From positions 1 through 27,122 of the IMG/VR virus record IMGVR_UViG_3300044960_000210: a stretch of DNA of 27,122 nt. The stretch is one strand, 5' to 3'. The notes beneath the pieces are model-generated. The model saw nothing but the letters and a program-made list of their open reading frames with translations, was not told where the DNA came from and did not search any database. Positions 4,966 to 26,389 of this stretch are shown here, piece by piece. Within the stretch, counting starts at the first letter, position 1, and each line of letters opens with the position of its first letter. Source of the stretch: a virus. The position numbers were made by a program, and so were the translations under genes.

Positions 4966-5436
4966 ATGAAGTCAATACTCTTTTCAACCGAAATGGTCAA
5001 AGCAATTAAAGCGGGAATAAAAACTCAAACACGGCGCATTGCTTCTGAATTAGATGAAGAGTGCCGTATACAGAAAGGCGATACGTTATATGTGAAGGAA
5101 ACTTATTCGAAACAAGGTGATAGTTATATCTACAAAGCAGATTTTAATTATCAAGAACTTGAAAAGTTGCAAATAAAATGGCGGCCAAGCATTTTCATGC
5201 CGAAAGATGCCGCCAGATTATTTCTCAAAGTTACGAACGTACGAAAAGAACGACTGCATGATATTTCAGAACAAGACCTCAGAGCGGAAGGTATAAACAG
5301 CACTATCGGCTATTACCCACTTATGATTGCAATGTTTGAGGAACTCTGGAACAATATACACGGCGATAACGCTTGGAACGAAAACCCACTGGTATGTGTT
5401 ATCGAATTTGAGAAATTACAAAACTACACTGCATAA
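4966..5436 (+). CDS. ASCH-domain phage protein (156 aa)
   Basis: Starts MKSILFSTEMVKAIKAGIKTQTRR in continuous reading. The opening ILFSTEMV-x-AI-x-AG-x-KTQTRR, then KGDTLYVKET, KWRPSIFMP, AARLFLKVTNVRKERLHDI and the terminal FEELWNNI...NPLVCVIEF are the hallmarks of small phage ASCH proteins (a PUA-like RNA-binding fold; some bacterial ASCH proteins act on modified nucleosides). Length is normal and the KTQTRR motif is intact. It starts 14 bases after the last tRNA-like gene and ends one base before the methyltransferase gene. A role in RNA or nucleotide handling is inferred from the fold only. Confidence 0.8.
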   Translation: MKSILFSTEMVKAIKAGIKTQTRRIASELDEECRIQKGDTLYVKETYSKQGDSYIYKADFNYQELEKLQIKWRPSIFMPKDAARLFLKVTNVRKERLHDISEQDLRAEGINSTIGYYPLMIAMFEELWNNIHGDNAWNENPLVCVIEFEKLQNYTA

Positions 5437-5437
5437 T

Positions 5438-6664
5438 ATGGCAAAGAAAATTCAACAGCTCCAAGACCTTGTCTTTGACGAAAAGAACATCAACAAAGGT
5501 AGCGAATATGGTGCTCAGCTGCTCGAAAAATCACTCAAAGAACTTGGTGCCGGACGCTCGGTGCTTGCGGATAAAAACGGTATTCTTATCGCTGGCAATA
5601 AAACCGTAAAAAAGTGCGAAGAGCTTGGCATCAACAAGGTTAAAGTAGTGGAAACAACCGGCGACGAACTTGTTGTCGTGCAGCGCCTTGACCTGGATAT
5701 TAACAGTCCAGAAGGCGCTAAAATGAAAATACTTGATAATACAGTATCCAAGCATAACTATGTTGAAGACCTTGAGGTCGCAGAGGTTGTCTGCGAAGAG
5801 GTCGGAATTGAGCCTTTGGAATTAGGACTTGAAATTAAAAATACTCAATTACAAGCATCAGAAGATAACTATGAAATACCTGAAGAAATTGAAACAGATA
5901 TTGTTCCAGGTGACTTATTTGAAATCGGCCCACATCGATTACTTTGCGGTGACAGCACAAATGCCGAACACGTGGCTAAATTGATGAATGGAGAGAAAGC
6001 GGATATAACAGTTCATAGTCCACCTTACAACGTAGGTAGAACGCCAAACGGTAATAAGCAGAAATATCAAAACGATAGCGATAATAAGAGTGCTATTGAG
6101 TATTTGCAATTATTGGAACGATCCACTAAAAATGCTGTTCTAAATTCAATATTTTCTTTTGTAAATGTTCAATCGGTAGCAGGTAATAAAATAACACTAA
6201 TTGAATACTTGGCAGATATGAAAGAATGGTTTTGCGATTACATTATTTGGGATAAAATGCAAGCAGAGCCAGCAATGTGTGATAATGTACTAAATAGTAG
6301 ATTTGAATTTGTTTATGTGTTTGGTGAAAGTGCTACAAGAAGAATAGGTGTTAAAAAATTTAGAGGCAATTTAGAAAACATTATTTTCATTAAAAGCAGA
6401 CAAGATAAAGAGTTTTCAAAATTTCATAAAGCTACATTTCCAATTGCGTTTGCTGCTTATTTCATTGAAAACTTTAGCGTACAAAGTTGTTTAGATTTAT
6501 TCTGCGGCACAGGCACAACAATGGTTGCCGCCCACCAACTTAAACGCAAATGTTACGGCATGGAAATATCACCACAATACTGTCAGATAATCATCAACCG
6601 CATGCGAAATCTCGACCCATCGCTTGAAATCAAACGAAACGGTAAACCTTATGGGCAGACATAA
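5438..6664 (+). CDS. ParB-like domain / DNA methyltransferase fusion (beta class, SPPY)
   Basis: 408 residues from the ATG at 5438, one base after the upstream stop. Residues 1-130 resemble the ParB/sulfiredoxin-like N-domain that precedes many phage methyltransferases (GILIAGNKTVKKCEELGI in place of a G-x-G-x-R loop). The catalytic part follows: GDLFEIGPHRLLCGDS, motif IV as VHSPPYN, a variable target-recognition region, and near the C-terminus motif I as DLFCGTGTTMVAAHQL for S-adenosylmethionine. Motif IV before motif I is the beta arrangement. SPPY is typical of N4-cytosine enzymes, whereas DPPY is usual for N6-adenine, so N4-methylcytosine is the better guess. It has no partner endonuclease here and probably protects phage DNA from host restriction. 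The centre (about 6050-6500) is visibly more AT-rich than the ends. Confidence 0.85.
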   Translation: MAKKIQQLQDLVFDEKNINKGSEYGAQLLEKSLKELGAGRSVLADKNGILIAGNKTVKKCEELGINKVKVVETTGDELVVVQRLDLDINSPEGAKMKILDNTVSKHNYVEDLEVAEVVCEEVGIEPLELGLEIKNTQLQASEDNYEIPEEIETDIVPGDLFEIGPHRLLCGDSTNAEHVAKLMNGEKADITVHSPPYNVGRTPNGNKQKYQNDSDNKSAIEYLQLLERSTKNAVLNSIFSFVNVQSVAGNKITLIEYLADMKEWFCDYIIWDKMQAEPAMCDNVLNSRFEFVYVFGESATRRIGVKKFRGNLENIIFIKSRQDKEFSKFHKATFPIAFAAYFIENFSVQSCLDLFCGTGTTMVAAHQLKRKCYGMEISPQYCQIIINRMRNLDPSLEIKRNGKPYGQT

Positions 6665-18712: not shown

Positions 18713-19098
18713 TAAAGAAAAATACAGCTCTAAGAAACAAGCAGCTCAATGATTCGCTTGCGGTCTTCAATGGCGGTACGCTTGAAATCCGTACAGGTGC
18801 ACAGCCTGCATCTGCTAACAACGCTGCTACCGGTACGCTGCTGGTAAGTATTAACATCCCGAACCCTGCATTCAGTGCAGCTTCTGGTGGTGTTGCGTCA
18901 AAAAACGGCACTTGGTCGGCTGTTGCAGTTGCTTCAGGTGTAGCAGGTTGGGCTCGCATGAAGTCTTCCAACGGCACTTATGTCAGAGACTTCTCTGTCG
19001 GTGAATCAGGTGCTGACTTAATTATTGACGATGACAATGTAACTTCTGGAACAACTGTAACAGTAGTTACGCTAAATATTACTGCCGATGGTGCTTAA
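18709..19098 (+). CDS. virion protein, small beta-sandwich type (129 aa)
   Basis: Low-complexity, Ala/Ser/Gly/Thr-rich beta protein: NGGTLEIRTGAQPASANNAA, then GTLLVSINIPNPAF, GTWSAVAVASGVAGWARM and DFSVGESGADLIID. This layout (L.IRTG.QPAS...A..GTLL...., a G-x-A-x-W-x-R core, and a closing D..VG..G.D) recurs in tailed phages of many hosts as a small structural protein, possibly decoration or fibre-associated. Text composition resembles that of the capsid gene, suggesting high expression. It overlaps the next gene by 11 bases. Confidence 0.6.
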   Translation: MIKKNTALRNKQLNDSLAVFNGGTLEIRTGAQPASANNAATGTLLVSINIPNPAFSAASGGVASKNGTWSAVAVASGVAGWARMKSSNGTYVRDFSVGESGADLIIDDDNVTSGTTVTVVTLNITADGA

Positions 19099-21007
19099 TC
19101 CGCTTGAGATTAAGTTCGTAGTGAATGGCAATAACCTAAAAAATGTTATTGGCTGGGAAGATTTTACCCTTGACCTTGAGCGGCATAATGATTACCATGG
19201 TGTTATATTTTTCTCAAACTTCGAGCCAGTATTCGTTGGCGATGATGCAGAATACATACTGCATTTAATTAACCAAGACATAGATGGTAGTCATAGTATT
19301 CAAATATACCTTAACGATGAGCTTGTACTTACCGGCCTGCTTGAACTTGCGAGCGCTGAGATAACATATTTTAATAACCTGCTTCGTGTAAAGTGTGGAA
19401 TAAAGAAGACAGATGTATGGAGCAAGTTGATACAGCGTAAAAGTGTTGAGTTTGATATTACGCCTGCTACTGCTTTAGGATTAGATGGTCAGCAGCTTAA
19501 TACAGTTGTTTCTCAGATTGATTTGCCGCCGATTGAAATAATATACAATTTCAAAGTGTTAAAAGAATTACGTTCTGCCTATTCAAATCTTACTAATAAT
19601 ACACTCTATTTGATGGTAAACTATGAACCGGCAGAGAACAATATCGAAGAGGTCTTTAACTATGGAATGAATATTAGCGAGTTGCCACCTTTTGAAGTAG
19701 AAAAGTATTTTATCAATGTGAAGTATGCCGGTAAATATATCTTCAAAAATAAAATCAGTGCAAGAATAATATTCACACAGCCTGGAAGTACTTATATTCT
19801 AAGTTGCTTCATAAAGGTTAATGCACAAGCACCCATTCAGGTAGGTTCGACATTTAACGATGTCTTAGGTGTAATAAACGCAGATTTCAATTTCAACAAC
19901 TATGAAGTCAACTGTAATCCAGGCGATAAAATATACCTATACATGGTTCTTGTTAGATTGGGTGGAATTTCCAGAAACTTTAACTTTTACAATGGTAGTT
20001 TCTTTCAAGTCTTTCAAGGTACAAACTTTGAGGTAGAAGCAAGAACGCAATACTACTGGCTATCTCGTGAATCACTGACAGTTGAAGAGGCTTTAAGAAG
20101 AACTATTTATGGTTGCAATTCACAACTTCCGCAAATAGACTACCAATTTAATGCACGTATAATGCGAGGACGTCAGATTAGAATACCGCAGAGCAAGCCA
20201 TTTGCAGTTTCATTCGATAAGCTATTTAATAACCTTGCAAAGATATTTCCTATCGGTCTAACTTATGACGAGCAGCTCATCCGCATCGTTGACGTAGCAA
20301 CGCTGTACGATAATGAGGTATTTGCCGAAATCGTATTCCGTGAGAAGCCTTCATTAAAGTTAAATTTGCAAAAATACATAAGCACTGTTGAAATAGGATA
20401 TTCTAAGTATGAAAGCTCATTGCCAGGATTGCGAACCGGTGGCAGCTTTGTTGCAACAAATGCGAACAAAAATATAGGCTCGACGCTTAACCTTGTTTCA
20501 GATTTTGTTAGTGAGCAACTTGTTATCGAAGAAGGTAGGCGGTTGTCAATTGACCCGGAAAAAGATTGGAGCTACGATGAAGATATTTTTATCATTGAGA
20601 CGCAAAATGGGCAGCCGCCAAATATTGGGTCTTACAATTTAAACTTAAGACCACACAAGAATTTCAACCGGCTTCAAAAAATTTTCCAGACAGCTAAGAA
20701 AAATTTTCAAATAAAAAGTTTAAAAGGTTCAAGCTCTTTGGTAATTGACAACTACGATGGCCGTTTCTTCTCGGCATGGGAACTAAGCGGCAAATGCTTC
20801 ATGGATTTCGAGCTTTTTCGGGCCATTAAGCAGTCCGGCAGGCATAAAATGTTTGCCGTGGCAGGCTCTGAATTAAAAGGATTTTTAAAAGTTCTAAGCT
20901 TCAACCCCTTCAAGGGCGAGGCTGATATTACTTTAATCGTTAACTTTGATGAGCTGGACATCCAGCCTGGATTTACAATAGGTTACTCACTGGGCTATGA
21001 CGCTTGA
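19088..21007 (+). CDS. large tail-tip / baseplate-hub-like protein (639 aa)
   Basis: Starts MVLNPLEIKFVVNG with GWEDFTLDLERHNDYHGVIF, followed by beta-rich domains in the first 150 residues, a carbohydrate-binding-like middle part (residues about 180-320, with GKYIFKNKISARIIFTQPGS and STYILSCFIKVNA), and a C-terminal half with FAVSFDKLFNNLAKIFPIGL, DEQLIRIVDVATLYDNEV and LKLNLQKYISTVEIGYSKYE. The last segment resembles the clustered strands of tail hub proteins. The gene lies between tail-tip proteins and the fibre, so it likely forms the platform to which the fibre attaches. No enzymatic motif is seen. It overlaps the fibre gene by 11 bases. Confidence 0.6.
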   Translation: MVLNPLEIKFVVNGNNLKNVIGWEDFTLDLERHNDYHGVIFFSNFEPVFVGDDAEYILHLINQDIDGSHSIQIYLNDELVLTGLLELASAEITYFNNLLRVKCGIKKTDVWSKLIQRKSVEFDITPATALGLDGQQLNTVVSQIDLPPIEIIYNFKVLKELRSAYSNLTNNTLYLMVNYEPAENNIEEVFNYGMNISELPPFEVEKYFINVKYAGKYIFKNKISARIIFTQPGSTYILSCFIKVNAQAPIQVGSTFNDVLGVINADFNFNNYEVNCNPGDKIYLYMVLVRLGGISRNFNFYNGSFFQVFQGTNFEVEARTQYYWLSRESLTVEEALRRTIYGCNSQLPQIDYQFNARIMRGRQIRIPQSKPFAVSFDKLFNNLAKIFPIGLTYDEQLIRIVDVATLYDNEVFAEIVFREKPSLKLNLQKYISTVEIGYSKYESSLPGLRTGGSFVATNANKNIGSTLNLVSDFVSEQLVIEEGRRLSIDPEKDWSYDEDIFIIETQNGQPPNIGSYNLNLRPHKNFNRLQKIFQTAKKNFQIKSLKGSSSLVIDNYDGRFFSAWELSGKCFMDFELFRAIKQSGRHKMFAVAGSELKGFLKVLSFNPFKGEADITLIVNFDELDIQPGFTIGYSLGYDA

Positions 21008-23586: not shown

Positions 23587-23856
23587 ATGATACTATTTGA
23601 AAAAGGCATCGAAGTAGATGACACGCTTGTTGAGAGCGTTGGCGGTAAGGAAGCATTTGAGTTTACCGTTCTTTCTTACATTAAAGCCTTGCTAAAAGGT
23701 TCTTATGTAAGGCAGGAAGAAAAGAAAGCTAGGGAGCAAGCTGATATATTGCTTGCTGAAAAGGTAAAAAAATATCAGGAAGCGATTGATATTCTACCCG
23801 CACCTGAAGAGCCGAACGAAAATCCAAAATATGAAGATAAACTCAAACTCAAATGA
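23587..23856 (+). CDS. small acidic hypothetical protein (89 aa)
   Basis: Begins MILFEKGIEVDDTLVESVGG and is helical, with a K/E-rich stretch (RQEEKKAREQADILLAEKVKK in parts) and a proline/acidic end PAPEEPNENPKYEDKLKLK. No membrane segment. It closes the tail gene cluster and overlaps the next gene by ATGA. A fibre chaperone or assembly protein is conceivable by position, but unsupported. Confidence 0.55.
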   Translation: MILFEKGIEVDDTLVESVGGKEAFEFTVLSYIKALLKGSYVRQEEKKAREQADILLAEKVKKYQEAIDILPAPEEPNENPKYEDKLKLK

Positions 23857-24140
23857 GCATCGAAAAAATACACGGTAAATTCCTGGCAGTGATTGACATT
23901 ATCCTGTCAGTGATTTCTTTTTTAAACATCTTCGACATGGTGGTAAGAATACTTGCTGCCATCGGTGTGGTGATTTCAACTTATTATCTTATCAGAAAAT
24001 ACATCAACGAATCACGAGTGCTGAAGGAAAAGAAAAGAGTTCTTGAGCTTGAACGCATGAAAAAAGAGCAGGAACTGGCACAGATAATTGAAAGAAACAT
24101 CAAAAAAAAGAAAGAGAATGAAGACGATTACATTGATTAG
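23853..24140 (+). CDS. membrane-anchored coiled-coil protein, lysis-region (95 aa)
   Basis: Residues about 10-45 are hydrophobic (FLAVIDIILSVISFLNIF, then MVVRILAAIGVVISTYYLI), probably two closely spaced membrane helices; residues 50-90 are a very charged coiled coil rich in K and E, ending ENEDDYID. This is a holin-like or antiholin-like layout. It overlaps the next gene start by 23 bases. I regard it as the first gene of the lysis cassette, inferred from topology. Confidence 0.5.
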   Translation: MSIEKIHGKFLAVIDIILSVISFLNIFDMVVRILAAIGVVISTYYLIRKYINESRVLKEKKRVLELERMKKEQELAQIIERNIKKKKENEDDYID

Positions 24141-24540
24141 AAAATATTTCAAAGATTACACCATCGGGTCGTTAATTGATGGCGATAAAACCATTGCGCT
24201 GACACTGGAACTGCCGTGGAAAGACAATAAACGAGCCATAAGTTGCATTCCGGAAGGCAGTTACAAGGTGACAAAAGAAGCGCCGATACCGCAATTTGAT
24301 GGGGACAAAAGAAAGCCCAGAGATTACTGGCACTTTAGAGTGCATGATGTACCGGAGCGCAGTGGCATTTTGATTCATCGTATTACGTATGTAAAAGATT
24401 TAAAAGGCTGCATCGGTGTTGCTTCTCGGTTTCACGATATTGACAAAGATGGTATTCCTGATGCTATTCAAAGTGGTAAAAAATTGCAGTGGATGGTGGA
24501 TAACCTACCTGATGAGTTCACGCTTGTGATAAAATCATGA
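24118..24540 (+). CDS. DUF5675-like protein, possible lysis enzyme
   Basis: 140 residues from the ATG at 24118 (MKTITLIRKYFKDYTIG); a longer start at 24088 is inside the upstream gene. The sequence follows DUF5675: T-IG-SLIDG, LTLELPWKDNKRAISCIPEG, YWHFRVHDVPERSGILIH and DLKGCIGVASRF. The ordered IH...D..GCI block resembles the His/Cys active-site region of L,D-transpeptidase-fold proteins, but an S/H-GC-R motif is not fully present, so catalysis is uncertain. No other endolysin (amidase, muramidase, peptidase) is seen in the window, and membrane genes flank it, so a role in cell-wall degradation is a reasonable inference. Confidence 0.7.
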   Translation: MKTITLIRKYFKDYTIGSLIDGDKTIALTLELPWKDNKRAISCIPEGSYKVTKEAPIPQFDGDKRKPRDYWHFRVHDVPERSGILIHRITYVKDLKGCIGVASRFHDIDKDGIPDAIQSGKKLQWMVDNLPDEFTLVIKS

Positions 24541-24860
24541 AAGAGCTTCTGCTTTTTTTGGTTGAAAAACGCTGGGATTTGCTGCTGATAGGGTTAAGCC
24601 TCATCTACCGTCGTGAAATATTTCAAGCATTGAAAGGCGGCAACGGCGTACTGCAAATTGATGAGCTTGCAAAAGGATTGATAATGTTAGTTTTTTACCT
24701 ATCATTCGAGGCTGAAGTGAACCGCAAGACCGAAGTAAATGTTTTTCCGGAAGAGTACTGGTTTGCTTTGCTATTCAGCGTAGCAGCGATTGCAGGAATT
24801 AAATATCTAAAAAAATATGAGCACAAGAGCACTAAGAAAGATACTGCTGATGCTGGTTAG
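24537..24860 (+). CDS. holin-like membrane protein (107 aa)
   Basis: Begins in an ATGA overlap: MKELLLFLVEKRWDLLLIGL. Hydrophobic segments at about 4-24, 45-60 (IMLVFYLSFEAE) and 73-92 (EYWFALLFSVAAIAGIKYL), separated by FQALKGGNGVLQIDELAKG and a short acidic loop. The tail is basic (KKYEHKSTKKD). I recall a similar ALKGGNGVLQ-DELAK family beside lysis genes in Bacteroidota phages. It would make the membrane lesion that lets the enzyme out. Confidence 0.6.
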   Translation: MKELLLFLVEKRWDLLLIGLSLIYRREIFQALKGGNGVLQIDELAKGLIMLVFYLSFEAEVNRKTEVNVFPEEYWFALLFSVAAIAGIKYLKKYEHKSTKKDTADAG

Positions 24861-25119
24861 CTTCTGCCTCGGCTACTATGTTAAAGAGCAGAAGAAGCCC
24901 GTTGAGTATGTAGTTGTGAAGTACGATTTAAAAAAAATTGATTCACTGCGCAACGAATTAGGGAACTTGCAACAGCTGTATGCTTACCGAGTGCATGAGA
25001 TTGAGCAAATAAAGGAAGAACTCAGAAAGACACGACAGCGGTACAATCGCCTTACCAAATCTATTATCCGTAACACTGATATTGATAGTGTTTTAAATTC
25101 AATCGTATGCGACCGATAG
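24817..25119 (+). CDS. inner-membrane spanin-like protein (100 aa)
   Basis: A short basic N-terminus (MSTRALRK) is followed by one membrane helix (ILLMLVSFCLGYYV) and then a periplasmic coiled coil from about residue 35 (YDLKKIDSLRNELGNLQQLY, HEIEQIKEELRKTRQRYNRL). This is the Rz topology: N-terminal anchor, helical periplasmic arm. It overlaps the holin-like gene by 44 bases and the next ORF by 13 bases. Spanins fuse inner and outer membranes at the last step of lysis; function is inferred from topology and position. Confidence 0.55.
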   Translation: MSTRALRKILLMLVSFCLGYYVKEQKKPVEYVVVKYDLKKIDSLRNELGNLQQLYAYRVHEIEQIKEELRKTRQRYNRLTKSIIRNTDIDSVLNSIVCDR

Positions 25120-25460
25120 TTATTGCTTTATTTTTTCTACCTCTATCTGCTTCCGGGCAAAGCCTATTTGTTGAAAAGTGCAAGATAGAGAAGATGGTTA
25201 CAATTATTCACAGCTGCGACAGCGTTGTGAATGTTCAGGACAGAATAATAGAGTTACAGCAAGGCAATATTGATAACCTGAAGCAGCAGGTGCAAATTGG
25301 CGAGCGAATAATAGAAGAACAAAAAAAAGGTATTGAGAGCCTTAGCGGTGCACTTGCTTTATCAAATGAAAAAATTGAAAATAAAGATAAAGAAATTAAG
25401 CAGTTAAAATTGCAAAGGGTAATATTATTCGCTGCGTTGATATTGGCTGCTATTTTTTAA
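25107..25460 (+). CDS. exported coiled-coil protein with C-terminal membrane helix (117 aa)
   Basis: Residues 1-18 form a signal peptide (MRPIVIALFFLPLSASGQS) with a probable cleavage after SASG. Then comes a long coiled coil (ELQQGNIDNLKQQVQIGERI; LSGALALSNEKIENKDKEIK) and a C-terminal membrane helix VILFAALILAAIF with no cytoplasmic tail. Signal, periplasmic coil and C-terminal anchor is the layout of a unimolecular spanin, but the lipobox cysteine is missing. Together with the preceding gene it could be a two-component spanin-like pair. It ends convergently with the next gene, sharing four bases. Confidence 0.55.
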   Translation: MRPIVIALFFLPLSASGQSLFVEKCKIEKMVTIIHSCDSVVNVQDRIIELQQGNIDNLKQQVQIGERIIEEQKKGIESLSGALALSNEKIENKDKEIKQLKLQRVILFAALILAAIF

Positions 25461-26329
25461 CCACACTCGGAAAAAATTTCGCAGTTTTCACCACCAAGTA
25501 AATCCATTTGAAAAATGTAGTCATCTGCATCATTTTTTATTTTGCCATGCCAATTATCTGCTTCTTTTAATATTTGCTTTGTACTTCTATTATTTCTGAA
25601 AAATACTCTATCTTTTGCGTTAGGGTCTTTTGTAAATTCAGACCCCACTCTTGGATATTTAGTTTCCATTATGTCCATAAATTTAAATGCTTCTGGATTT
25701 TCTTTCGCTATTTGGTAAAGTTTTTTATCTGATTTTTTCCAACATGTTATGCAGTTTCCTTGGTAACTTTTTAGATTTAATCTAAAAGGCATTGTACGCC
25801 AGAAAAAATTGACCATTTGCTTATTAACCGGTATCATATTCCTATTGATTAAAGGATATATAAAACCCAATTCTTTTGCATTTGGGTTAATTCTATCAGC
25901 TTCATCTAATCTAATACCAATAGCTGTATGATATTTTTGGCCGTTGAAATAATCTTTACCGAATGCTTTAATTGGATTTTGTTTAAGTTCTCTTGTACAA
26001 TGTGGGTAAGACTGATTTGGTATACCGTATTTTTTTATGACTGCTTCAAATGGTTCACCGTTTCTTGAAGCGTCTGCAAAATTTGTTAAATAGTATCCTG
26101 AAGATTTTCTTGCTTCTGAATAAACAAGAGCTTCTACCCAATGGACTTTTAAATTCCAATATTCATCGCATTTTTTAACAAATATCAATGTCTCTTCATT
26201 TTCCAGGCCTGTGTTTGCAAAAACAAATACAATATTTTCATAGCCAAATTTTTGGTAGTGTCTTTTAAGCCATTGAGCCATGAATGCAGATGTTTCACCT
26301 CCAGAAAATGAAACTAATAGATTTCTCAT
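25457..26329 (-). CDS. PP-loop ATPase of the PAPS-reductase family
   Basis: 290 residues from the ATG at 26329 (MRNLLVSFSGGETSA). The PP-loop is SFSGGETSA (about residues 7-15), followed by IVFVFANTGLENEETLIFV, as in CysH-type enzymes. Further features are HCTRELKQNPIKAF, YHTAIGIRLDEADRI, a CxxC-containing GNCITCWKKSDKK and the terminal CEIFSECG, which ends where CysH has its ECG-type redox motif. Such genes are frequent in phages; proposed uses include sulfur transfer and nucleic-acid modification, but the substrate is not known. The gene is AT-rich compared with the late operon. It lies in an ATGA-coupled set with the two small genes upstream (minus strand). Confidence 0.85.
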   Translation of the reverse strand: MRNLLVSFSGGETSAFMAQWLKRHYQKFGYENIVFVFANTGLENEETLIFVKKCDEYWNLKVHWVEALVYSEARKSSGYYLTNFADASRNGEPFEAVIKKYGIPNQSYPHCTRELKQNPIKAFGKDYFNGQKYHTAIGIRLDEADRINPNAKELGFIYPLINRNMIPVNKQMVNFFWRTMPFRLNLKSYQGNCITCWKKSDKKLYQIAKENPEAFKFMDIMETKYPRVGSEFTKDPNAKDRVFFRNNRSTKQILKEADNWHGKIKNDADDYIFQMDLLGGENCEIFSECG

Positions 26330-26389
26330 GGTTGCTGAATCTTTGTTTACATTGAGCAAAATCCCACAGTATTTTACTAATTCTTTGTT

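Follow-up and report, generated by a model that had tools for sequence, protein, structure and literature searches.

We analyzed a run of five small genes in a 27,122-base stretch of viral DNA (hereafter the window), which is the whole of IMG/VR record IMGVR_UViG_3300044960_000210. The record is a linear, incomplete fragment; it encodes a terminase, a portal, an HK97-type capsid, a tape measure and tail proteins, and therefore derives from a tailed phage. An earlier note, made from the sequence, had described the five genes (23853-25460) as an unconventional lysis cassette. All five were present as open reading frames (ORFs) on the + strand, with successive overlaps of 23, 4, 44, and 13 bases. 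Gene 1 (23853..24140; 95 amino acids, aa) encodes two hydrophobic segments followed by a charged coil and is a candidate holin or holin regulator. Gene 2 (24118..24540; 140 aa), for which the ATG at 24118 is the best choice of start, encodes a DUF5675 protein with a predicted L,D-transpeptidase fold and is the proposed endolysin. Gene 3 (24537..24860; 107 aa) encodes a hydrophobic, holin-like protein, and gene 4 (24817..25119; 100 aa) a short N-terminal hydrophobic anchor followed by a coil, making it a candidate inner-membrane spanin. The product of gene 5 (25107..25460; 117 aa) has a signal peptide, a coil, and a C-terminal membrane helix and is without a lipobox, a topology resembling that of a unimolecular spanin (u-spanin). 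The cassette follows tail-fibre-type genes, and at its 3′ end it meets a gene transcribed toward it from the opposite strand.

By sequence match, the product of gene 2 is certainly a member of DUF5675, as the note had proposed: it matched PF18925 with an E-value of 1.6e-22 and a score of 79.9 bits, the Pfam gathering cut-off being 26.7, and phrog_1501 with an E-value of 3.2e-17. Among 62 aligned relatives, H87 and G97 were conserved in 62/62 sequences and R81 and C98 in 61/62 each, and the spacing between R81 and H87 was six residues in every one. The conserved His and Cys both lie within the IH...GCI block that the note had likened to L,D-transpeptidase active sites. The stretch ELPWKDN(K) had also been considered as catalytic and was dropped, its apparent invariance being partly due to its use as a search word when the relatives were collected. 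An N-terminal signal-anchor (mean hydropathy of at least 2.0) was found in none of 75 DUF5675 ORFs and not in the window protein, so that the family does not resemble the signal-arrest-release (SAR) endolysins. Matches were obtained in 109 phage records with the window protein as query and in 188 with a crAss-like homologue.

The AlphaFold2 model of gene 2, built from a 20-sequence alignment, had a mean pLDDT of 90.3 and a pTM of 0.84. A structural comparison with YkuD, which the note had suggested, bore out the resemblance: when Foldseek's top 992 chains were realigned with VIA-align, enzymes of the L,D-transpeptidase (YkuD) fold made up 47 of the 50 rows shown, with Z-scores of 10.1-5.9 over 93-113 residues, and the first unrelated fold appeared at a Z-score of 2.5. 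As modeled, the DUF5675 protein has an L,D-transpeptidase/YkuD fold, a structural assignment that does not extend to membership of PF03734. Among the matches were Pgp2, Csd6, DpaA, and Bd1075, which we take to be hydrolases. The type VI secretion system effector Tlde1a matched with a Z-score of 9.6 and shares with the DUF5675 protein the R-x5-H...GC arrangement and the same Arg-to-His spacing. In Tlde1a, the residues are R115, H121, and C131, and the effector is described as having L,D-carboxypeptidase and D-amino-acid exchange activity (PMC9638812). It differs from the DUF5675 protein in that it is secreted, carries an (S/T)HGC motif and a capping subdomain, and is toxic through stem trimming and exchange (PMC9638812).

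The genomic surroundings of DUF5675 genes strongly support a role in lysis. A small transmembrane protein was encoded within two same-strand genes at 62 of 78 non-redundant DUF5675 loci, as compared with 34 of 177 control genes taken from 51 of the same loci. Two of the 16 loci without such a neighbor encode fusion proteins with hydrophobic segments of their own, and four belong to microviruses. Fusions of DUF5675 to the muramidase family PF11860 were found on two bacterial contigs, L100 (4495-6369; E-values of 5.5e-62 for the muramidase and 3.3e-30 for DUF5675) and L101 (68-1528; 2.6e-64 and 4.4e-28); these are bacterial (pro)phage proteins and appeared by eye to have N-terminal hydrophobic segments. 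In phage contig L020 (5806-6720), DUF5675 is fused to a GTA_holin_3TM-like domain (2.3e-31 and 2.3e-4), the holin half scoring 22.1 bits, below the curated 24.8, and an identical ORF occurs in L019 (5962-6876). Elsewhere DUF5675 and a holin are encoded side by side: in L093, DUF5675 directly precedes a gene transfer agent-type holin (GTA_holin_3TM, E-value of 2.2e-24), and in Vibrio phage 1.122.A, DUF5675 and an annotated holin form a two-gene island amid opposite-strand genes. Similar membrane proteins, of PHROG 1544 (a family of unknown function), are encoded directly after DUF5675 in Vibrio phage 1.176.O; in martha 12B12 and ZX4290, both Mu-like, they come one gene further on.

The Mu-like phages provide a positional comparison. 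The gene order in Vibrio phage ZX4290 (late activator, DUF5675, ... DUF2730, ... small terminase) parallels that of Mu (late activator, endolysin gp22, Rz-like spanin, ... DUF2730, ... small terminase), and Mu gp22 is an experimentally proven endolysin (PMC9239132). Because DUF5675 in ZX4290 occupies the position of gp22, a lysis role for it is indicated. The likeness of Mu lysis genes 22-25 to the DUF5675 region of the Mu-like Vibrio phages is one of gene position and neighbors; in contrast, gp22 belongs to the SAR endolysins, its catalytic residue being a Glu (E37), and Mu has no holin (PMC9239132), whereas DUF5675 lacks a leader and has a different fold.

Family scans of 222 neighboring proteins (109 plus 113, with a 50-aa ORF of L038 omitted) were read from the best 25 of 45 and the best 25 of 123 matched families; among the matches listed, several were holin families and none was an endolysin family. 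In L148 (record G041), the only terminase relative of the window phage with DUF5675, small membrane proteins precede the DUF5675 gene and a 192-aa protein follows it, with what by eye is a lipobox-like start and a C-terminal helix. DUF5675 was also present in microviruses of ~4-5 kb, three of them with capsid or replication genes (L021, L024, L026) and one a named microvirus (L002), as a separate small extra gene adjoining the pilot protein. Being leaderless, the enzyme would in these microviruses have to get out of the cytoplasm with no holin to help it.

The note had seen no known endolysin family. No classical endolysin was found in scans of 30 window proteins or when all six frames of the record were searched for seven families, and no wall enzyme was seen by eye in the 5.6 kb upstream on a same-phage contig, L149. 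Across records, six endolysin families were represented in 1 of 39 with DUF5675 (the window, 33 viral contigs, four named phages, and G041; a truncated same-phage copy, G037, was dropped) and in 8 of 14 DUF5675-free controls chosen by the similarity of their terminase to that of the window phage. The Fisher p-value for this difference was 2.7e-5, or 4.4e-5 once near-identical DUF5675 proteins were removed, and serves as a guide only, given that the two sets were assembled in different ways, are related by descent, and contain fragmentary records. The matches in the eight controls comprised four phage lysozymes, two M15, one GH19, and one CHAP, all above cut-off. The negatives for GH108 and GH19 are weaker, GH108 having been found in 0/14 control genomes; Amidase_2 was run on the DUF5675 records only (0/38) and so stands outside the comparison. 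Five more named DUF5675 records (W05-W09) were searched for GH108, GH19, and CHAP only, and the whole-record searches did not include NlpC/P60, GH25, M23, SLT, Amidase_3, or stand-alone PF11860. The single positive among the DUF5675 records was a phage-lysozyme relative in L093 (7547-7918), which matched only model positions 48-125. It begins at position 48, and the missing N-terminal third is presumably the catalytic part; it may be a decayed lysozyme that was replaced by DUF5675. The distribution is what interchangeable lysis enzymes would give.

The remaining genes of the cassette were characterized mainly by layout. Hydropathy segments were called at a crude threshold of 1.6, under which genes 3 and 4 fall. 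Gene 1, with its two segments and charged coil, weakly matched a holin family (phrog_1350, E-value of 0.0036), and gene 3 has a weak holin-type link through phrog_2524 (7e-4), a family also matched (5.5e-4) by a holin encoded beside DUF5675 in L082 that matched holin family phrog_3427 with an E-value of 1.2e-25. Neither gene 1 nor gene 3 had a confident match to a holin family; the holin is likely one of the two, on weak evidence for each. Gene 4 gave only weak matches, including the Rz-like spanin family phrog_739 (0.09), and by its N-terminal anchor and coil could be an inner-membrane spanin. Gene 5 has N- and C-terminal hydropathy segments, the latter (residues 99-117, mean 1.79) in keeping with a C-terminal helix, together with a signal-peptidase-I-like start and weak Rz-like matches (0.037 and 0.093). 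A unimolecular spanin is defined by its lipobox; judged from its sequence, the layout of gene 5 is u-spanin-like, minus that element. Convincing homologues of genes 1, 3, 4, and 5 were not found in the collected loci by tblastn, the best hit being gene 5 against L047 (0.024).

The note had further proposed that the last two proteins form an envelope-fusing pair. Gene 4 agrees with this in having the layout of an inner-membrane spanin, while gene 5, with its signal-peptidase-I-like start, does not supply the expected partner, and the pair is weakly supported because neither gene has a lipobox. Proteins with a lipobox and a C-terminal helix are encoded near DUF5675 in L006, L032, L033, L040, and L042, as in L148. 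By a crude rule, such proteins were not enriched (5/78 loci versus 9/177 control genes), and at one of those 5/78 loci, L003, the protein is a four-segment membrane protein and not a spanin. Since there was no enrichment by this rule, the linkage of spanins to DUF5675 rests on the six examples just named.

Taken as a whole, these results make it probable that the window carries a late lysis cassette whose DUF5675 protein serves as the endolysin, a thiol L,D-peptidase that relies on a holin for its release. The predicted fold, the conserved residues, and the recurrent lysis-module contexts thus favor the note's designation of this protein as the wall-acting enzyme; its catalysis and substrate, like the identity of the holin, the role of the spanins, and lysis itself, are what we infer, with the chemistry taken from the fold class. 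The leaderless enzyme would wait in the cytoplasm, as suggested by the lack of an N-terminal signal-anchor in all 75 proteins examined. When infection ends, the product of gene 3 or gene 1 would act as the holin and admit the enzyme to the periplasm, where Cys98, aided by His87, would attack the stem peptide at the L,D bond linking diaminopimelate-3 to D-Ala-4. Stems would be trimmed, and 4-3 cross-links would be severed if cross-linked donors were accepted; genes 4 and 5 would then help to disrupt the outer membrane. Stem trimming alone might weaken the cell rather than burst it, and we put the chances that cutting of cross-links is the main act of the enzyme at about even. The broader proposition is likewise finely balanced: that DUF5675 constitutes a widespread class of phage endolysins not yet recognized by experiment, thiol L,D-peptidases of the transpeptidase fold that cut the L,D bond of 4-3 cross-links, and that crAss-like phages, Bacteroidota siphoviruses (the window phage included), Mu-like and other Vibrio phages, and even ~4.5-kb microviruses have it as their sole lysis enzyme.

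Several observations weigh against an endolysin of this kind. A search of the PDB with Foldseek gave no match at an E-value of 0.001 or below, with LdtMt2 at 0.69-0.78; gene 2 did not match PF03734 (YkuD) at an E-value of up to 1 in the Pfam scan; hhalign of gene 2 against ten host YkuD domains returned a probability of 8%; and phmmer and profile searches of PDB sequences retrieved no L,D-transpeptidase. In the canonical His...(S/T)HGC motif, the (S/T)H before GC is absent from DUF5675, where the residues preceding GC are variable and the usual spacing is 11, and the sole loss of the Cys, which is replaced by Ser, occurs in L101, one of the muramidase fusions. A search of the whole window turned up no ORF with a lipobox. 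The record is a fragment, so that an endolysin elsewhere in the phage genome is conceivable. In addition, the L,D-carboxypeptidase and exchange activities known for this fold trim stems and need not lyse cells. The DUF5675 protein could instead edit the wall, as an L,D-transpeptidase or exchange enzyme remodeling stems late in infection, and so assist lysis or block superinfection while an unrecognized protein acts as the main cutter. The fold is common to transpeptidases and to Tlde1a, a carboxypeptidase with D-amino-acid exchange activity; in L100 and L101, DUF5675 comes together with a distinct muramidase; and L093 retains a lysozyme-family protein nearby. However, that lysozyme match is the one without its presumed catalytic third, most DUF5675 records are without another recognized endolysin, the domain sits at the endolysin position of Mu, and it is the only candidate visible in the ~4.5-kb microvirus contigs; we therefore regard wall editing as unlikely.

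Less likely still is a virion-associated enzyme that opens the wall for DNA entry, with the lysis genes lying beyond the fragment. The DUF5675 gene does come just after tail-fibre-type genes, and BFVD holds the same fold within proteins of 868-1251 aa, including a 1251-aa protein of Ralstonia phage RP31, with weaker fold matches in proteins that carry the names tail lysozyme, GH19, and endolysin; judging by these large proteins, some members of the fold may be virion proteins, a further point against a purely lytic role. The window protein, in contrast, is small, leaderless, and stand-alone amid small membrane proteins, its homologue in PhicrAss001 is annotated beside "lysis regulatory protein/holin" genes, and DUF5675 and a holin stand by themselves as a pair in phage 1.122.A. 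The functions of the genes other than DUF5675 rest on weak matches, and it could be argued that the operon is not a lysis module and that its small membrane neighbors are incidental; the neighbor counts relative to controls, the fusions, and the synteny with Mu make this highly improbable. A lysis cassette built around DUF5675 remains our preferred reading.

Similar arrangements exist in named phages. In Bacteroides phage crAss001 (PhicrAss001; MH675552), gp27-gp30 resemble the cassette in that a DUF5675-type protein, gp30 (recognized via the cr111_1 protein), is encoded downstream of small membrane/coil proteins whose annotations read lysis regulatory protein and holin, a single 122-aa gene lying in between; they differ in belonging to another virion lineage, in having no annotated pair like genes 4 and 5 after gp30, and in that function is given by annotation only. 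In GenBank, this homologue and those of relatives of PhicrAss001 are labeled "L,D-carboxypeptidase/transpeptidase" near "lysis regulatory protein/holin", and one BFVD entry is so named. The GenBank note for gp26 of crAss001 mentions a CHAP domain, for which a Pfam CHAP search gave no match. The paper on the isolation of PhicrAss001, in the text available, speaks of three lytic-function genes, and the terms carboxypeptidase, transpeptidase, endolysin, and holin are absent from its main text (PMC6235969). In Cellulophaga phage phi39:1, gp28-gp32 include DUF5675 followed by an overlapping pair, one protein with an N-terminal anchor and a charged helix and the other with a signal peptide and a coil, and an upstream coil protein has a hydrophobic stretch; there is, however, no recognizable homologue of gene 3, and gp32 is without a C-terminal helix. 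BLAST of the phi39:1 pair against the window pair gave no convincing match, the best E-value, 0.010, being between two coils.

With relatives in at least 109 phage records and a similar cassette already annotated in PhicrAss001, the term "unconventional" used in the note overstates the rarity of the arrangement; we rate it as a variant of the holin-endolysin-spanin scheme, with an enzyme class already annotated in places and a predicted function. Pfam and PHROGs list DUF5675 as a family of unknown function, and phage papers that name it assign it no role in the portions available. A literature search of limited coverage, which included the accessible text of papers on crAss-like phages (PMC7886860, PMC10172136, PMC10569736, PMC10354031), found no experimental test of DUF5675 and no phage enzyme of this kind shown. 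Should DUF5675 prove to be an endolysin, it would fill that role in many phages for which no lysis enzyme has been recognized, crAss-like phages among them, and would show that a fold otherwise associated with making or trimming links in the wall can burst cells. The question of a holin acting with DUF5675 bears on many phage lineages at once.

The host of the window phage is probably a member of the Bacteroidota. The closest cellular carriers of DUF5675 in GTDB genomes were 10 contigs, nine with Bacteroidota titles and one with a Balneolia title, a distribution that fits this host and does not prove it. A contig search found no downstream extension of the window, and a search for close relatives of a 639-aa protein (19088-21007) returned only one contig, from the same phage. 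Contig L149 (2283-7918) adds 5.6 kb upstream of window base 1, where genes that by eye look like an SbcC/RecF-type ATPase, a RecT, and a metallo-beta-lactamase nuclease were seen. Within the window, a DNA methyltransferase (5426-6661, + strand; PF01555, E-value of 1.7e-22) has a ParB-like N-terminal part by phrog matches and adjoins an ASCH-like protein (4966-5436; PF04266, 20.0 bits, under the 21.2 cut-off). Immediately before the cassette, an 89-aa ORF (23587..23856, + strand) with no PHROGs family match shares the ATGA of its stop with the start of gene 1. Upstream of the DUF5675 cassettes of L033 (3924-4697) and L032 (4861-5658) lie genes for possible envelope esterases, alpha/beta-hydrolase-like proteins in which GxSxG is apparent by eye and of which one carries a signal peptide. 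The gene abutting the cassette (25457-26359, − strand) encodes a PAPS-reductase-like protein (phrog_424, E-value of 4.7e-51), and a protein similar to it by eye is encoded just upstream of DUF5675 in L036 (3188-4048, + strand).

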